In this document: positions 32,011-38,583 of the stretch, piece after piece | Layout of the letters: the number at the start of each line of letters is the position of its first letter | How positions within the stretch are numbered: position 1 is the stretch's first letter | DNA from: Emcibacter sp. | Lineage (GTDB): Bacteria; Pseudomonadota; Alphaproteobacteria; Sphingomonadales; Emcibacteraceae | Assembly (NCBI GenBank): GCA_021741205.1 | Contig: JAIOYI010000006.1 | Span: 62,001-126,000 of the forward strand | DNA: 64,000 bases | Direction: 5' to 3' | Made by a program: the position numbers and the translations under genes | Notes under the pieces: generated by a model | Database searches by the model: none | Seen by the model: the letters and a program-made list of their open reading frames with translations, nothing else | Told to the model about the DNA's origin: nothing

Positions 32011-32511
32011 ATGTTTGTTGAAAAATGGACAAAGTCTCCCCTTCATCCCGCCTTGCTTCTGGTCACATGGTTTTATTCGGGACTTTTTCCCAAAGCCCCC
32101 GGCACTATGGGGTCACTGGCAGCATTGCCCTTTGCTTGGGTTATTATTTTACGCTTTGGGGCTGTGGGGTTATGTCTTTCCATTGTACTTGTGTTTTTTT
32201 TGGGTCTTTGGGCCTCAAAAATCTATATGACAGAAACGGGTAAGACTGATCCCGGTGAAATTGTTATTGATGAGGTGGCGGGACAATGGATAGCCTGCCT
32301 GCCCATTGCCGCCATGACGCCAATGCTCCCTTTGTCCCCTGGCCCCTTTATACTGGCCTTTGCGGCATTTCGTGTTTTTGATATCTATAAACCTTGGCCG
32401 ATTCGAATTTTTGATGAACGCCATGATGCCTATGGGGTGATGATGGATGATGTGATTGCGGGATTTTTTGCCTCAATCATTCTAATAGGATTTTATCTTT
32501 ATGTTCTCTGA
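32011..32511 (+). CDS. pgpA: Phosphatidylglycerophosphatase A
   Basis: A membrane enzyme (166 residues) that removes phosphate from PGP to make phosphatidylglycerol. Signatures are GLFPKAPGTMGSLAALP near the N-terminus and DPGEIVIDEVAGQWIA with the metal-binding acidic residues, followed by FRVFDIYKPWPIR. Three or four membrane helices. It starts 2 bases after ispDF and its end overlaps cinA by 11 bases. Confidence 0.94.
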   Translation: MFVEKWTKSPLHPALLLVTWFYSGLFPKAPGTMGSLAALPFAWVIILRFGAVGLCLSIVLVFFLGLWASKIYMTETGKTDPGEIVIDEVAGQWIACLPIAAMTPMLPLSPGPFILAFAAFRVFDIYKPWPIRIFDERHDAYGVMMDDVIAGFFASIILIGFYLYVL

Positions 32512-32992
32512 TGAAATAGTAACGCTTGCCACACAAACACTGCAAATGGCACGGGATAAGGGGTTACACCTTGCGACTGCCGAATCCTGCACAGGCGGGC
32601 TTATTATGGGGGCATTAACAGAAATTGCGGGGTCGTCTGATGTGGTGGATCGGGGCTTTATCACCTATACCAACCGCGCTAAAATGGACATGTTGGGCGT
32701 TACGGCGGAAACCTTGCGCTTGGGCGGTGCCGTCACCCGTGAAACCGCTATTGCCATGGCGGTCGGCGCCTTAAAAAATTCATCGTCCAACATTGCCGTC
32801 TCCGTCACAGGCATCGCAGGCCCCACAGGCGGCAGCGAGGAAAAACCCGTCGGCCTTGTCCATATGGCGGCAGCTATGCGGGACGGCAAGATATTGCATG
32901 AAAAACACCTGTTTGGAGATGTGGGACGCTCCGAAGTCAGAGAAGCCACCGTCATTGCGGCCTTAAAGTTATTTATGCGGGCAATGAGCTGA
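32501..32992 (+). CDS. cinA: CinA C-terminal family protein (NMN deamidase, PncC type)
   Basis: A stand-alone CinA C-terminal domain (163 residues), the family with nicotinamide-mononucleotide deamidase activity in pyridine-nucleotide salvage. Motifs are TAESCTGGLIMGALTE, GSSDVVDRGFITYTN and SVTGIAGPTGGSEEKPVGLV. The N-terminal MoaB-like domain of full-length CinA is absent, as is common in proteobacteria. Its last codons are part of repeat copy A, and a decayed second copy of these codons lies 1.7 kb downstream. Confidence 0.93.
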   Translation: MFSDEIVTLATQTLQMARDKGLHLATAESCTGGLIMGALTEIAGSSDVVDRGFITYTNRAKMDMLGVTAETLRLGGAVTRETAIAMAVGALKNSSSNIAVSVTGIAGPTGGSEEKPVGLVHMAAAMRDGKILHEKHLFGDVGRSEVREATVIAALKLFMRAMS

Positions 32993-33044
32993 CCGTCCCT
33001 GTCATGACTTGTCCAAATAACAAAATCCATCAACCCATTAATTT
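32953..33044 (+). repeat. 92-bp direct repeat, copy A
   Basis: This copy spans the last 13 codons and stop of cinA and 52 bases beyond. It matches 34665-34756 in 84 of 92 positions without gaps. The longest identical stretch covers the CTGTCATGACTTGTCC region and the following bases through AAAAT. Together the copies flank the frameshifted EAL-like gene. Confidence 0.93.
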
Positions 33045-33125
33045 ATAATAATAAAAAAACTATTGGCAGTAATGTTCTTCTGTGTTTATCTTAAAACAGA
33101 ATGTCGTTGATTTAATATTATATTT

Positions 33126-33221
33126 ATGAAAATAACACTGCACAAAACTTGGCAAAAGTTAATGTGTCAAGCCTATTATGAGCATTATTTGGAAAGTGAC
33201 AAAACGGCACTGGAATTATGA
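33126..33221 (+). CDS. Possible small ORF of 31 residues
   Basis: An ATG-to-TGA frame encodes 31 residues beginning MKITLHKTWQK and ending DKTALEL, in the otherwise featureless gap between repeat copy A and the EAL-like gene. It has no clear ribosome site and no family I recognise. Apart from this frame, the gap 33045-33289 is AT-rich and shows nothing I can assign. Confidence 0.22.
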   Translation: MKITLHKTWQKLMCQAYYEHYLESDKTALEL

Positions 33222-33289
33222 TTTATTAAATATATGGTAATAAATATTGTATATTTTTAACATAGGTTTTTTTGAAATGGACTGTGCGC

Positions 33290-34632
33290 ATGAGTAAAAT
33301 AATCGATATAATTACAAGGGTTGCTTTTGGAGAGCAAAAGCAACCCTCTGTAAAAACCAATCAACTGCGCAGAAAAAAACATTTTCAGAAAAACAGAATA
33401 AATCTTTCCTAAGTGGTGATACTGCGGCTAAGCTTGAGAAAATTCTATCCAGCGATAATCTCGTAGATACTGGGCGGATCAAGCTGTTGGGGTTGGAGAT
33501 CATCAAGAAGAAACTTGACAAAAATTGGCCCATATTACTTGAAAATATCCATGAATCTATGATCTTAATTACGGAAAGTCTCATTAGTGATAAAGATATT
33601 TTTTTTAAAAAATCCGATGATGAATTTATTATTGTTTTTGCCTCAACTACGGATGAGAGAGCCAAGTTAATTTCCGCAAAAATTTTGCAAAAATTGACGG
33701 AAAAATTTATTGGATCAGTGGAAACTAAGGATATTATTGTCAAAACTGCCGTAAATAAAGTTGATGGCGCGATAATGTTTCAATCAGAAGATCTCCAATG
33801 TATACTTAATCATAGCCAAAATGAGATTGTAAATCGGCATCTACATGATTTTCAAAATATTAACAGCCCTGTGGATACTTTAAAAGAAGAACCTTTTCTA
33901 TTTGGATACCGTCCGGTATGGGATTCTATTCATGAGGTTATTACAACTTTCATCGTAAAGCCCTGTGTATATACCTCAAGAAATATTAATAACAATTCAA
34001 GACCGAAGAAAATTGGCTATGACGTATTGGAAGATCCGGATTCCAAGCAAGCCAGAATCGATCTTGATTTGTTGACATTAACTTCCAGTATCGAAACACT
34101 TGAAGAACTCTATCAAAATAATTTCCGATCAATTTTTAATATATCTATTTGTTATGAGACCGTCTTTAATATAGAATTGCTTATGGAGTATATATCGCAT
34201 TGCAAGAATATTTCGCCTTCTCTTAAAAAATATATTGTTTTTCATTTAGTCGATTTTCCAGAAGGCATTCCAACTCCAAAATTACATTTCATCGTATCGA
34301 CGCTTAAAAAATACAGCAGTGCTGTGATGCTACTCACATCGACAAGTAGCTTGCATCTAGAAAAATATTTTGACTGTGGCATAAAAGTTATTGGGACTAA
34401 TATTTTAGATCACGGTCCTTCAACAGAAAAAACATGGCAAAAAATAGCTCTCTTTATTGAAAATTGTCATAAATACAAAATTAAGGTTGCACTCCTTGAC
34501 GTCAATACCTTAGAAGATCTGATTATAGCCCAGACAAAAGGTGTTGATTACATATCTGGTTTAACCATAGGAGATTATAAGGACACTTCTTGGCATATGA
34601 AGAGAAAGCCATGGAAAAATTTCCTGAAATAA
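33290..34632 (+). CDS. Degenerate GGDEF/EAL-like protein, frame broken at an A7 run
   Basis: The ATG at 33290 opens a 40-codon frame that ends in TAA at 33410-33412. A second frame, lacking any ATG or GTG upstream of 33487, runs through to 34632. Joining them by a -1 shift at the seven A residues 33373-33379 gives one 447-residue protein without loss of sequence. Its middle (about residues 60-170) resembles a worn GGDEF fold (KKSDDEFIIVFAS). The C-terminal 240 or so residues resemble an EAL barrel (FGYRPVWDSIHEV, SIFNISICYET, GVDYISGLTIGD). VKP replaces EAL and the usual metal-binding acids are not evident, so c-di-GMP hydrolysis is unlikely. It could be a pseudogene, a slippage-regulated gene or a sequencing error. 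A TTG at 33272 with AGG upstream is an alternative start. Confidence 0.65.
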
Positions 34633-34664
34633 TTTGTTAACAACTGTATCTTTAAATTATTTTC

Positions 34665-34756
34665 CATTACGGCCATATAGTTATTTATGCGGGCAGTGGG
34701 CTGAACGCCCCTGTCATGACTTGTCCAAATAACAAAATCTATCAACCCATTAATTT
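34665..34756 (+). repeat. 92-bp direct repeat, copy B
   Basis: Second copy of the repeat at 32953-33044, starting 32 bases after the EAL-like stop. It includes a decayed version of the cinA 3' end: the LFMRA codons and a TGA are still readable, but an in-frame TAG has appeared. The copy therefore derives from the cinA end and not the reverse. Thirteen bases (CGCCCCTGTCATG, 34706-34718) recur at 36992-37004 after the kinase gene. Confidence 0.93.
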
Positions 34757-34794
34757 CTATGTCATTATATTAATCTTAGTAATCTTCACCTAAT

Positions 34795-36960
34795 ATGTTA
34801 TTGTATTTTGTAAATTTTATAGTTAGGAAATGCACTATTGTGGGAGATATATCTGATACTCTAGCCCCCCTATCCGTTGCATCTGAGCGGGCAAAACAAA
34901 AATCGAAAGAAGAGTTGGTAGCCGAAATTTTTCGATTGCATAAACTTATCGAAAGCACGCAATATCAAACGAAAACGGCTTACTGGGAATATGTTATAGA
35001 AACCCAAGACATAACCTTTTCCGAATATGCCTATAAACTTGTTGGCTTAGAGCCATATTCCATTAAATTGACAAACGAAATTTTTGATGAACTTATTCAT
35101 CCAGATGATCGTGATATGTTTGTGGCAATGCGCAACAAACTTGCTTCGGAGGGCATACCAGACGGCTTTGAATATCGCCTTCTTGTCAATGGTAAAACGA
35201 AACATATCAAGTTGACTTCCGTACTTGAGAAAAACGAAAATGGCGTCGGCATCAGAGTAATGGGTGCAACACAAGATATCACCGACCTTAAATATAATGA
35301 AGGCCGGTTACGTAAAATAAATTTATTTGCTCAAGATCTCATGACCCTACATTCGGAACAGGATCTCATATGGTATGTTGTAAAGCAAGTTGTCAGTGAA
35401 CTTGACCTTGAGGATTGTGTCATCTATCTGCTCGACAAAAATACCAATGAATTGGTTCAATCTGCGACCTATGGATTAAAATCTGGTGGTGACAGAGTGA
35501 TCAATAATAAACTCCGCATAAAAGTTGGAGAAGGCATTACTGGGCATGTTGCGATGACAAAAACTCCACTTATTATAGATGATATTACAAAGGATGATCG
35601 CTATATCGCCGATATTCCCGGTATGGGATCCGAAATTTGTGTGCCCATCATACATGAGGGGCAGCTTTTCGGCGTAATTGACAGTGAACATTCTGAAATA
35701 AATTATTTTACGGAAAATGACCAAAATCTTCTCAATACCATTGCCACACTTCTCGCGGCTAAACTTGGTCAATGGGATAATCTAGAAAAAATTAAGACCA
35801 GTGAGGCCCAATATCGTGAAGCACAAAGAATTGCTCACTTTGGCAGTTGGGATTGGGATCTGAAAAATAATATTATAAAACTCTCGAATGAGACATATCT
35901 CATCATGGGGCTAATACCTCAGGAGAAAGCTATTGATTTTAAGCAGTTTAGAAAATGCCTTCACCCCGATGATGTGGAGGCATTGACTACGACAGTAGAG
36001 CAAATGACACATATCCATAATGATTTTGATGCGAATTTTCGTATTGTCCGGCCCGATGGTGAAATACGTCACATACAATCCACTGGAGAAGCTTTTTTTG
36101 ACGACAATAATTCCGCCTTCAGAATGAGCGGAAGCATGTTGGATATCACAAAAATTAAAATAGCAGAAGATGCCTTAATGCGACATAAAGAAAATCTTGA
36201 AATGTTGGTAGAAGAGCGTACCGCCAGCATGAAATCCGCCCGTGATGAGGCGGAACAAGCCAATAAAGCAAAATCAGAATTTCTGTCACAGATGAGCCAT
36301 GAATTAAGAACACCCTTAAATGCTATTCTCGGATTTGGGCAACTTCTTAAGTTGGATTCTGATCTATTAAACGAAATACAGCAAGATAACGTGGAGGAAA
36401 TTTTATCCGCAGGAAGTCATCTATTAGAATTAATCAATGACATTTTGGATTTGACAAAAATTGAAACAAGAAAACTGAAAATCTCAATAAGTAAAATTCA
36501 CATTGATGAGATCATTCCGCAATGCCTTACTTTAATAGCGGCACCGGCAAACGAACGGCATCTCAATATTACAACGAATATTAAAAACACAGGGCATGTT
36601 ATCATGTCCGATGGCACAAGATTTAGGCAAGTTATGCTTAATCTTCTGTCTAATGCGGTTAAATACAACCGAGACTATGGCGACATCACACTAGATTATA
36701 AGATTATGGATGAAAACCATCTTCGAATATATGTAACAGACACGGGGATGGGACTATCAGAAAATGAAATCGCTAATTTATACACCCCATTCGAGCGTTT
36801 TAATAAAACCATTAATGTTGAAGGCACAGGCATTGGCTTGGTGATCACCAAAACGTTGGTTGAGTTAATGGGCGGAACGATGGGTGTCGAGAGTATTGTG
36901 GGCAAAGGCTGTTCATTTTGGGTGGAGTTTTTACGCTCTGATCCTGCATCGATGACATAA
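34795..36960 (+). CDS. Orphan PAS-GAF-PAS sensor histidine kinase
   Basis: A soluble sensor kinase of 721 residues. Domains in order are PAS (about 60-165, ending GATQDITDLK), GAF (about 175-325, VGEGITGHVAM and SEICVPI), PAS/PAC (about 335-460, GSWDWDLK and HPDDVEAL), HisKA with His502 in SQMSHELRTPLNAILGFGQ, and HATPase_c (LNLLSNAVKYN, DTGMGLSENE, GTGIGLVITKTLVELMGG). It has no receiver domain and no response regulator adjoins it. The ATG at 34795 lacks a ribosome site. A GTG at 34840, with AGGA 11 bases upstream, is a reasonable alternative that would remove 15 poorly conserved residues. Confidence 0.9.
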   Translation: MLLYFVNFIVRKCTIVGDISDTLAPLSVASERAKQKSKEELVAEIFRLHKLIESTQYQTKTAYWEYVIETQDITFSEYAYKLVGLEPYSIKLTNEIFDELIHPDDRDMFVAMRNKLASEGIPDGFEYRLLVNGKTKHIKLTSVLEKNENGVGIRVMGATQDITDLKYNEGRLRKINLFAQDLMTLHSEQDLIWYVVKQVVSELDLEDCVIYLLDKNTNELVQSATYGLKSGGDRVINNKLRIKVGEGITGHVAMTKTPLIIDDITKDDRYIADIPGMGSEICVPIIHEGQLFGVIDSEHSEINYFTENDQNLLNTIATLLAAKLGQWDNLEKIKTSEAQYREAQRIAHFGSWDWDLKNNIIKLSNETYLIMGLIPQEKAIDFKQFRKCLHPDDVEALTTTVEQMTHIHNDFDANFRIVRPDGEIRHIQSTGEAFFDDNNSAFRMSGSMLDITKIKIAEDALMRHKENLEMLVEERTASMKSARDEAEQANKAKSEFLSQMSHELRTPLNAILGFGQLLKLDSDLLNEIQQDNVEEILSAGSHLLELINDILDLTKIETRKLKISISKIHIDEIIPQCLTLIAAPANERHLNITTNIKNTGHVIMSDGTRFRQVMLNLLSNAVKYNRDYGDITLDYKIMDENHLRIYVTDTGMGLSENEIANLYTPFERFNKTINVEGTGIGLVITKTLVELMGGTMGVESIVGKGCSFWVEFLRSDPASMT

Positions 36961-37016
36961 CCATTAATAAAATACATGACAATGGACAGACCGCCCCTGT
37001 CATGCCCATCCCTTTT

Positions 37017-37128
37017 CGTCACTCCTGCGAAGGCAGGAGTCTAGCCCCTAGAAGATAATGACATCGAAGATGACGTTATTTGTCGAAATTGGATTCCTGT
37101 CCTTTTAAAGTTTGGCTAAGGAGGGACG
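37017..37128. repeat. Degraded palindromic repeat element with hairpin end
   Basis: The left end carries a perfect hairpin, ACTCCTGC-GAAG-GCAGGAGT (37021-37040), preceded by CGTC. The right end, read in reverse complement, starts CGTCCCTCCT and contains AAGGACAGGAATCC, so the two ends are imperfect inverted copies. This is the layout of the short palindromic intergenic repeats (BIME/MITE-like) seen in many proteobacteria. It may also terminate the kinase transcript. No transposase is present. Confidence 0.5.
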
Positions 37129-37436: not shown

Positions 37437-38150
37437 TCATTTTTCCAACAAAAAGGTTGCCTTGGTATGGGGTTTAATATTGCCGTGATGAAGAATGACG
37501 GATTTTTCGCTCAGGCCTTTCTCCGCAAAATATTTTTGCCAGCCCTTAAAGCTTCGAAAGGTAAAGGGAAGCGGCATGCCCCAGATACCCTTGCCCTCTA
37601 AGCCCTTGACGATTTTCACGGTTCCGACCGCCATATTGGAATAAAAATCATTCCACACCGTAAAGGCCCATTGCCACGGCGAGAAATAAGTATCCTCATA
37701 AACGATAATGCCTCTGCGGGAACAACGAATGGCCTCAGAAAAGATTTTATCCTGATGTTTCACATGATGCAGCATAAAAGCCATAACAATCACATCAAAG
37801 CTATTGTCCTCAAAGGGCAAAACATACCCATCATAAAAATCAATGGGAATGGTTGCGTTGGCATAATTCACCACATCAACGCCCCGCACGTCCCCATTGT
37901 ATTTTTTGGCAATAGCCTCCCCAAAGCGACCATTGCCGCAACCAACGTCCAGAACCCTGTCCCCATTCTGAATAAAATCACCAATATCCGACAGTCGCCA
38001 TGCCCGCTCATTTTCCGCAGATTTTGTCTGAATTTCAATATATTTACCTTTTGGAATCAAGAGGTTAATTATAAAAAGCGGAAAAGATAATAAAAAATAA
38101 AATATCCCCAAGGGAAGATATAAAATATTACGAATTGGTGTTATAGACAT
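37437..38150 (-). CDS. Class I SAM-dependent methyltransferase with N-terminal membrane helix
   Basis: A methyltransferase of 238 residues. A hydrophobic segment (ILYLPLGIFYFLLSFPLFI, residues 8-26) probably anchors it to the membrane. SAM motif I is VLDVGCGNGRFGEAIA and the later motif is SFDVIVMAFMLHHV, as in Methyltransf_11 proteins. The substrate is unknown; a lipid or quinone is an inference from the anchor. The ATG at 38150 has GGAAG 5 bases upstream and overlaps the end of coq10 by 23 bases, so it is coupled to coq10. Longer in-frame starts at 38162 and 38192 are less likely. Confidence 0.82.
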   Translation of the reverse strand: MSITPIRNILYLPLGIFYFLLSFPLFIINLLIPKGKYIEIQTKSAENERAWRLSDIGDFIQNGDRVLDVGCGNGRFGEAIAKKYNGDVRGVDVVNYANATIPIDFYDGYVLPFEDNSFDVIVMAFMLHHVKHQDKIFSEAIRCSRRGIIVYEDTYFSPWQWAFTVWNDFYSNMAVGTVKIVKGLEGKGIWGMPLPFTFRSFKGWQKYFAEKGLSEKSVILHHGNIKPHTKATFLLEK

Positions 38151-38583
38151 CGGCACTTCCATAAAGTTTATTCGCCCGTCCCTCAAAGGCATAGATCATG
38201 CGGCTTACGGCTTCGGTAAAAAATCCGCCAATCATTTTTTCAAATAGCTTATTTTTAAACTCAAAATCCACCAAAAAATCAACCGTGCAACCGCCCGCCT
38301 TATTTTCGGTAAATTGCCAATGATTATGAAGATATTTAAGCGGCCCCTTGATATAGTCAACCTCGATACGATTGTCCATTAATTTTACCGACGAGGTAAA
38401 GCGTTCCCGAAACATTTTAAAGCCAATAATAAGATCCGCATGAAGGGTTTTCTCTGTACGATTATAAACACGCGCCCCAATGCACCACGGCAAAAACTCT
38501 GGATAGGATTCTATATCGCCGACCATCTCATACATTTGGGCGGCGGAATAGGGAAAATTCTTGACGTCTGTAAATTTCGGCAT
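38128..38583 (-). CDS. Coq10/RatA-family START-domain protein
   Basis: A polyketide-cyclase/START-fold protein (151 residues) of the COQ10 family, thought to bind ubiquinone and support respiration; the E. coli member is called RatA. The opening FPYSAAQMYEMVGDIESYPEFLPWC and the closing helix are typical. In alphaproteobacteria it usually follows lipA and faces cinA, as here. The toxin label of RatA is not implied. Confidence 0.9.
   Translation of the reverse strand: MPKFTDVKNFPYSAAQMYEMVGDIESYPEFLPWCIGARVYNRTEKTLHADLIIGFKMFRERFTSSVKLMDNRIEVDYIKGPLKYLHNHWQFTENKAGGCTVDFLVDFEFKNKLFEKMIGGFFTEAVSRMIYAFEGRANKLYGSADVYNTNS

Follow-up and report, generated by a model that had tools for sequence, protein, structure and literature searches.

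How did the end of a housekeeping gene, cinA, come to lie on both sides of a 1.6-kb insert that holds a single gene in a marine bacterium? In the window (the whole stretch of 64,000 nucleotides that was analysed), cinA (competence-damaged family; 32501..32992, forward strand; Pfam CinA, 7.4e-50) was intact and followed ispDF and pgpA, an order kept within the genus. A preliminary description had reported two 92-bp direct repeats carrying the cinA tail, copy A (32953-33044) and copy B (34665-34756). Their gapless match in 84 of 92 bases was recovered here as part of a homology of 95 bp (A, 32953-33047; B, 34665-34759; both forward strand; 86/95 identical). The similarity ended sharply on both sides, and gapped alignment of the flanks gave a chance-level result on the left and a borderline result on the right (P = 0.05). 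In the whole assembly (2,568,931 bases, 18 contigs), the repeat was present as A and B only (E = 1e-79 and 8e-32; next match, E = 0.016). It had no match in viral contigs or plasmids, and none in phages beyond one of 24 bp at E = 0.3. No tandem repeats were found, Rfam gave chance-level matches only, and neither copy formed a stable fold that could serve as an RNA hairpin or terminator.

The first 40 bp of copy A are the end of cinA with its stop codon, and the other 55 bp are 3′ flank. By sequence comparison, it is the working cinA end followed by its native flank, because the 3′ flank of cinA in species G002 can be aligned with it. Copy B is a detached tail. The copies differed at nine positions, five of them within the cinA part, and all five were replacements (A to T, L to I, K to stop, M to V, and S to G). 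The change of K to stop (AAG to TAG) is the new in-frame TAG that the preliminary description had given for copy B. Since five of five coding differences altered the protein, and since G002 agreed with A rather than B at the positions where it was informative, copy B is dead and diverged after coding had ceased. An allelic origin of the A-B divergence was considered and dropped, all five coding changes being replacements; the differences at cinA itself are decay, hence they are no evidence of import. The A-B divergence of approximately 9% indicates that the event is old.

The insert between A and B held one gene, and no integrase or recombinase gene was present in the scanned neighborhood (approximately 28.5-41 kb), both as described before. 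The only mobile-element machinery in the insert was a dead, internally deleted IS6-family relic (33062..33173, reverse strand), which had been overlooked. Its left end with the terminal repeat (33101-33173) was fused to a 3′ piece of the transposase gene (33062-33110), its right end was missing, and its middle had been lost between the near-identical 10-bp repeats TCATCGACAT and TCAACGACAT. The relic matched IS6 copies in G010 and G012 (E = 1.6e-10 and 2.2e-8), and the transposase of the matching element was NCBIfam transpos_IS6. Full or partial copies occurred in relatives, and decayed copies occurred elsewhere in the source genome. The element does not explain the cinA repeats, because a single copy of its terminal repeat is present in the window. 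An IS6 composite or translocatable unit was rejected (single relic, no direct IS copies at both borders), and IS6 transposition as the cause was ranked low. Excision of the insert by recombination between the repeats, as proposed earlier, is possible but should be rare, given their divergence and a longest identical run of 31 bp, which contains the palindrome GTCATGAC. By length, this run would suffice for rare homologous deletion and is not suggestive of an active element. There was no sign of current mobility at the cinA locus.

The gene in the insert (cargo 1; 33290..34632, forward strand) encodes a degenerate GGDEF-EAL protein. Its Pfam domains fell below the cut-offs. The AlphaFold model (pLDDT 84) had a tandem GGDEF-EAL fold, with LapD (3pjw) as the best structure match (E = 1.2e-12) and other GGDEF-EAL structures also matching. 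Because the GGDEF site reads SDDEF and an EAL motif is not evident, the protein is likely to be catalytically degenerate, and sequence and model would suit a c-di-GMP sensor or adaptor like LapD or FimX rather than an enzyme. The frame is open from 33412 on, and the N-terminal part is out of frame near a run of seven A (33373-33379); this frame change may be a sequencing error, a young lesion, or recoding. If copy B is taken as the measure of neutral change, 406 codons free of stops would be expected in approximately 3% of cases at 9.5% change and in 25% at 3.6%. Cargo 1 has therefore probably been under selection for much of its stay.

The affinity of cargo 1 is foreign, as judged from its phylogeny. 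It grouped (support 100/99) with genes of another genus at three unrelated loci (G023, G042, and G047), apart from the rpsI-linked genes of its own genus. Members of the family lie between rpsI and argC in G010, G011, G016, and G017; the same interval of the source genome lacked a GGDEF-EAL gene and held a hemerythrin-like gene. At 0.335, the GC content of cargo 1 is lower than that of the window (0.416), as would suit a foreign or relaxed sequence. The named records that cargo 1 matched were Alphaproteobacteria and Kordiimonadaceae metagenome-assembled genomes (MAGs), and the relatives were marine alphaproteobacteria. No convincing flanking direct repeats were found around the homologous genes in G023, G042, G047, G010, and G011; a large repeat in L115 was rejected as a flanking repeat, being two neighboring paralogous genes. 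Within the bacterial family, degenerate GGDEF-EAL genes have a conserved position behind rpsI (L087, L092, L059, and L065), where two paralogues sometimes occur; some genomes have none there. The G023 gene (L064:6713-8060), the closest relative of cargo 1, contains two in-frame stops (TGA and TAA) and is pseudogene-like.

Relatives were compared using one genome per species. The genus layout is dusB, ispDF, pgpA, and cinA, facing ratA and lipA. In the window, the conserved far side of the junction is a ratA-like gene (polyketide cyclase family; 38128..38583, reverse strand), next to a methyltransferase gene (37437..38192, reverse strand) that was found at the cinA-ratA junction of G008 as well. 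The interval varied by species, measuring 67 bp in G015 and 333 bp in G013 and holding approximately 7.5 kb of other genes in G010. A GGDEF-EAL gene at this junction was absent from every relative examined, as was the repeat; their cinA 3′ flanks differed, and none of the 13 relatives with enough downstream sequence showed a cinA-tail duplication. The two outcomes named beforehand as contrary to an insertion, a dispersed repeat and an arrangement fixed among relatives, were thus not observed.

Behind copy B lies a histidine kinase gene with PAS, GAF, HisKA, and HATPase domains by Pfam (cargo 2; 34795..36960, forward strand). Its homologues in the genus were partial or of lower identity only, and none was at the cinA locus. 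Directly 3′ of it we observed a third, short core of the cinA tail that had also been overlooked (copy C, CAATGGACAGACCGCCCCTGTCATG; 36980..37004, forward strand), identical to A and to B at 21 of 25 positions each. When the downstream 3.8 kb was shuffled 300 times, chance matches reached at most 19/25, and the next best match to copy C in 840 kb of other sequence was 18/25. A 16-mer from copy C (≤1 mismatch), picked after the match had been seen, occurred three times in the genome, always at the cinA locus and in the same orientation. A REP-like palindromic element (CGTCACTCCTGCGAAGGCAGGAGTC; 37017..37041, forward strand), with relatives across the genus that often form inverted pairs, adjoins copy C, starting approximately 12 bp beyond it; it may explain the last few bases of copy C but not the first 18. 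Judged by these matches, copy C is probably an older cinA tail. The order of the locus is cinA, A, cargo 1, B, kinase, and C, and because decay increases outward along it, this order suggests two successive insertions with the oldest tail outermost. Against this, copy C is short and abuts the REP-like element.

Of the 2.57-Mb genome, 1.26 Mb was surveyed for close direct repeats lying outside genes, and the same plan came up elsewhere. Apart from one pair at IS6 relics on contig C15, all loci found had a repeat copy covering a gene's 3′ end, with the other copy detached farther downstream and cargo separating the two; these loci were cinA, a CYTH gene, and a Y-family polymerase gene. The CYTH tail repeat (C9:228705-228842 and 228077-228214; L171:8077-8842) was 138 bp long and 98.6% identical around a glyoxalase-like gene, and its two differences were both synonymous (42 of 42 residues kept). 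The CYTH locus could be a recent insertion or a join of two strains in the assembly. The polymerase tail repeat (C16:183955-184143 and 181833-182024; L195:1833-4143) was 193 bp long and 91.7% identical around two cargo genes; its three coding substitutions were all at third positions and were accompanied by an A-run indel and by changes in the flank. The polymerase insert also held the orphan end of a foreign cinA (DKVREATVIAALRLFKNAIT*; near C16:182985-183048), whose 44-bp match to G011 cinA was 86% identical. Because the copy differences at CYTH and polymerase are coding-constrained, they suggest that both copies were working alleles while diverging and that one arrived from a related genome, although two synonymous differences at CYTH are few. 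In 400 kb of G013, no tail-flanked case was found. Three cases are too few to prove a preference for 3′ ends, because insertions that spare genes are those that selection keeps.

These data bear differently on the ways in which such a structure could arise. The repeats could be an assembly artefact, two strain haplotypes with and without cargo having been joined in one contig. A metagenomic origin of the assembly is possible, since the named relatives are MAGs, and the CYTH copies resemble two alleles, so that an artefact stays possible for that case. However, the surveyed 1.26 Mb contained no N, complete genes separate the repeats, and the dead cinA copy B (stop, five replacements) is no working allele; we consider this explanation very improbable. 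An internal tandem duplication of cinA tail plus cargo, with later loss of the second cargo copy by deletion, would give the same arrangement in the end without foreign DNA at that step, and deletions between short repeats do occur here, as in the IS6 relic. Yet it requires two events per case and the same outcome in three cases, no cargo remnant follows copy B, and the constrained synonymous differences at CYTH better suit allelic import. We therefore regard it as unlikely. A linear fragment could also have been captured where a break was staggered, with fill-in duplicating the target directly; this needs a single step and would surround unrelated cargo with direct repeats that vary in length. 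Such capture is rendered improbable by the failure to find a Ku gene (genome 94% complete), by the length of a 193-bp stagger, and by the coding-constrained copy differences, which it leaves unexplained.

Genomic islands that enter gene 3′ ends by means of a tyrosine recombinase are bordered on either side by directly repeated copies of the target gene's end, and in this respect the present loci resemble them. Site-specific integration at the cinA 3′ end, with A and B as attL and attR of elements that lacked or had lost an integrase, would agree with the 3′-end target, the restored gene end, the serial accretion, and the single-gene cargo, all of which are island-like or cassette-like, and with the palindrome in the identical run. 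Unlike such islands, the present insertions have no integrase (for cinA, none in the scanned neighborhood) and a cargo of only one or two genes. The three repeats (95, 138, and 193 bp) lie at differing offsets from the stop and share no common core; in addition, a cinA-tail duplication was seen in no other member of the genus examined, and the repeat is unmatched in phages, plasmids, and viral contigs. Integration of this kind is hardly to be expected here, and of the earlier proposal the part that stands is a past insertion with a duplicated cinA end, which the relatives lacking gene and repeat and the differing junction contents support, whereas a site-specific or readily excisable element is not supported.

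The explanation that we favor, at a probability of roughly 0.55, is that the 3′ end of cinA bears the scar of an old insertion with long target duplication, probably of two in succession, most likely by homology-anchored import combined with illegitimate joining; the four alternatives above all rank lower. We infer the following donor, order of events, and joining step. The donor would be a relative whose cinA already had a new gene behind it, and its DNA would pair by homology with the resident cinA. The far end of the import would be joined illegitimately into the resident cinA, approximately 40 bp before the gene end. The gene would stay complete thanks to the incoming cinA end (A); the end of the resident copy (B) would be stranded past the cargo and then decay. 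In an earlier round, the histidine kinase gene would have been brought in and copy C stranded. The right end of a repeat would mark the point beyond which the 3′ flanks of donor and resident differ, and its left end would be the illegitimate junction, so that repeat lengths and offsets would vary from case to case.

Homology-facilitated illegitimate recombination (HFIR), in which one end is joined by homology and the other illegitimately, would leave such a footprint (PMC3240628), and the A-B footprint at cinA fits it. It is a laboratory mechanism with experimental precedent in a few species (PMC3240628; discussed in PMC2884548), whereas here the footprint alone is seen, in a bacterial family other than those of the demonstrations. 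Insertion with long target duplication is described from Helicobacter pylori, mainly for restriction-modification genes and with duplications in the order of 100 bp (Nobusato et al. 2000, as cited in PMC3874152, PMC3031569, and PMC1643837; see also PMC4978471). As far as these accounts describe it, the likeness is a gene without a mobile element between target direct repeats of variable length, and the repeats of 95 (cinA), 138 (CYTH), and 193 bp (polymerase) are of that order. From the H. pylori cases in the same accounts, the present ones differ in their signaling and metabolic cargo, their position at gene 3′ ends, and the serial copies behind cinA. Entry of new DNA behind a fixed anchor, with older 3′ pieces pushed downstream, resembles the immunity arrays of type VI secretion systems (T6SS; PMC5361080) and the orphan 3′ ends of Rhs genes (PMC2935791, PMC3150448). 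There, the displaced tails are parts of immunity or toxin genes; here, they are non-functional cinA ends behind a housekeeping anchor. Reports of cinA serving as a site of integration were sought in the literature, and none was found. The phenomenon is known; what the present loci add is cargo other than restriction genes, serial accretion with a housekeeping gene as anchor, and several cases in the same genome.

The data point to a recurrent but basically known route of gene gain. Most bacterial accessory genes have no visible mobile vehicle. Tail-flanked insertions leave a datable footprint in which the stranded tail serves as a neutral clock, and differences in that tail can separate import from internal duplication. 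With three cases of differing age in one genome, one of them apparently serial, comparing strains would allow both the rate and the mechanism of such gene gain to be measured. A bolder proposal, which we hold to be doubtful, is that the lineage has a favored route of gene gain at chromosomal gene 3′ ends, in which the host tail is duplicated and the process can be repeated in place, forming a cassette-like array without a recombinase. If true, it would explain why, away from genes and IS relics, tail-flanked insertions account for all the close direct repeats found in this genome, and also the presence of a foreign cinA tail inside the polymerase insert.

In 400 kb of G028, which belongs to another family, several intergenic repeats were found, one of which reaches 2 bp into the end of a gene. 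Between approximately 42.3 and 65.2 kb of its contig C1 (L222-L223), spaced intergenic direct repeats, one of them starting from the stop of a gene, look like a separate array.
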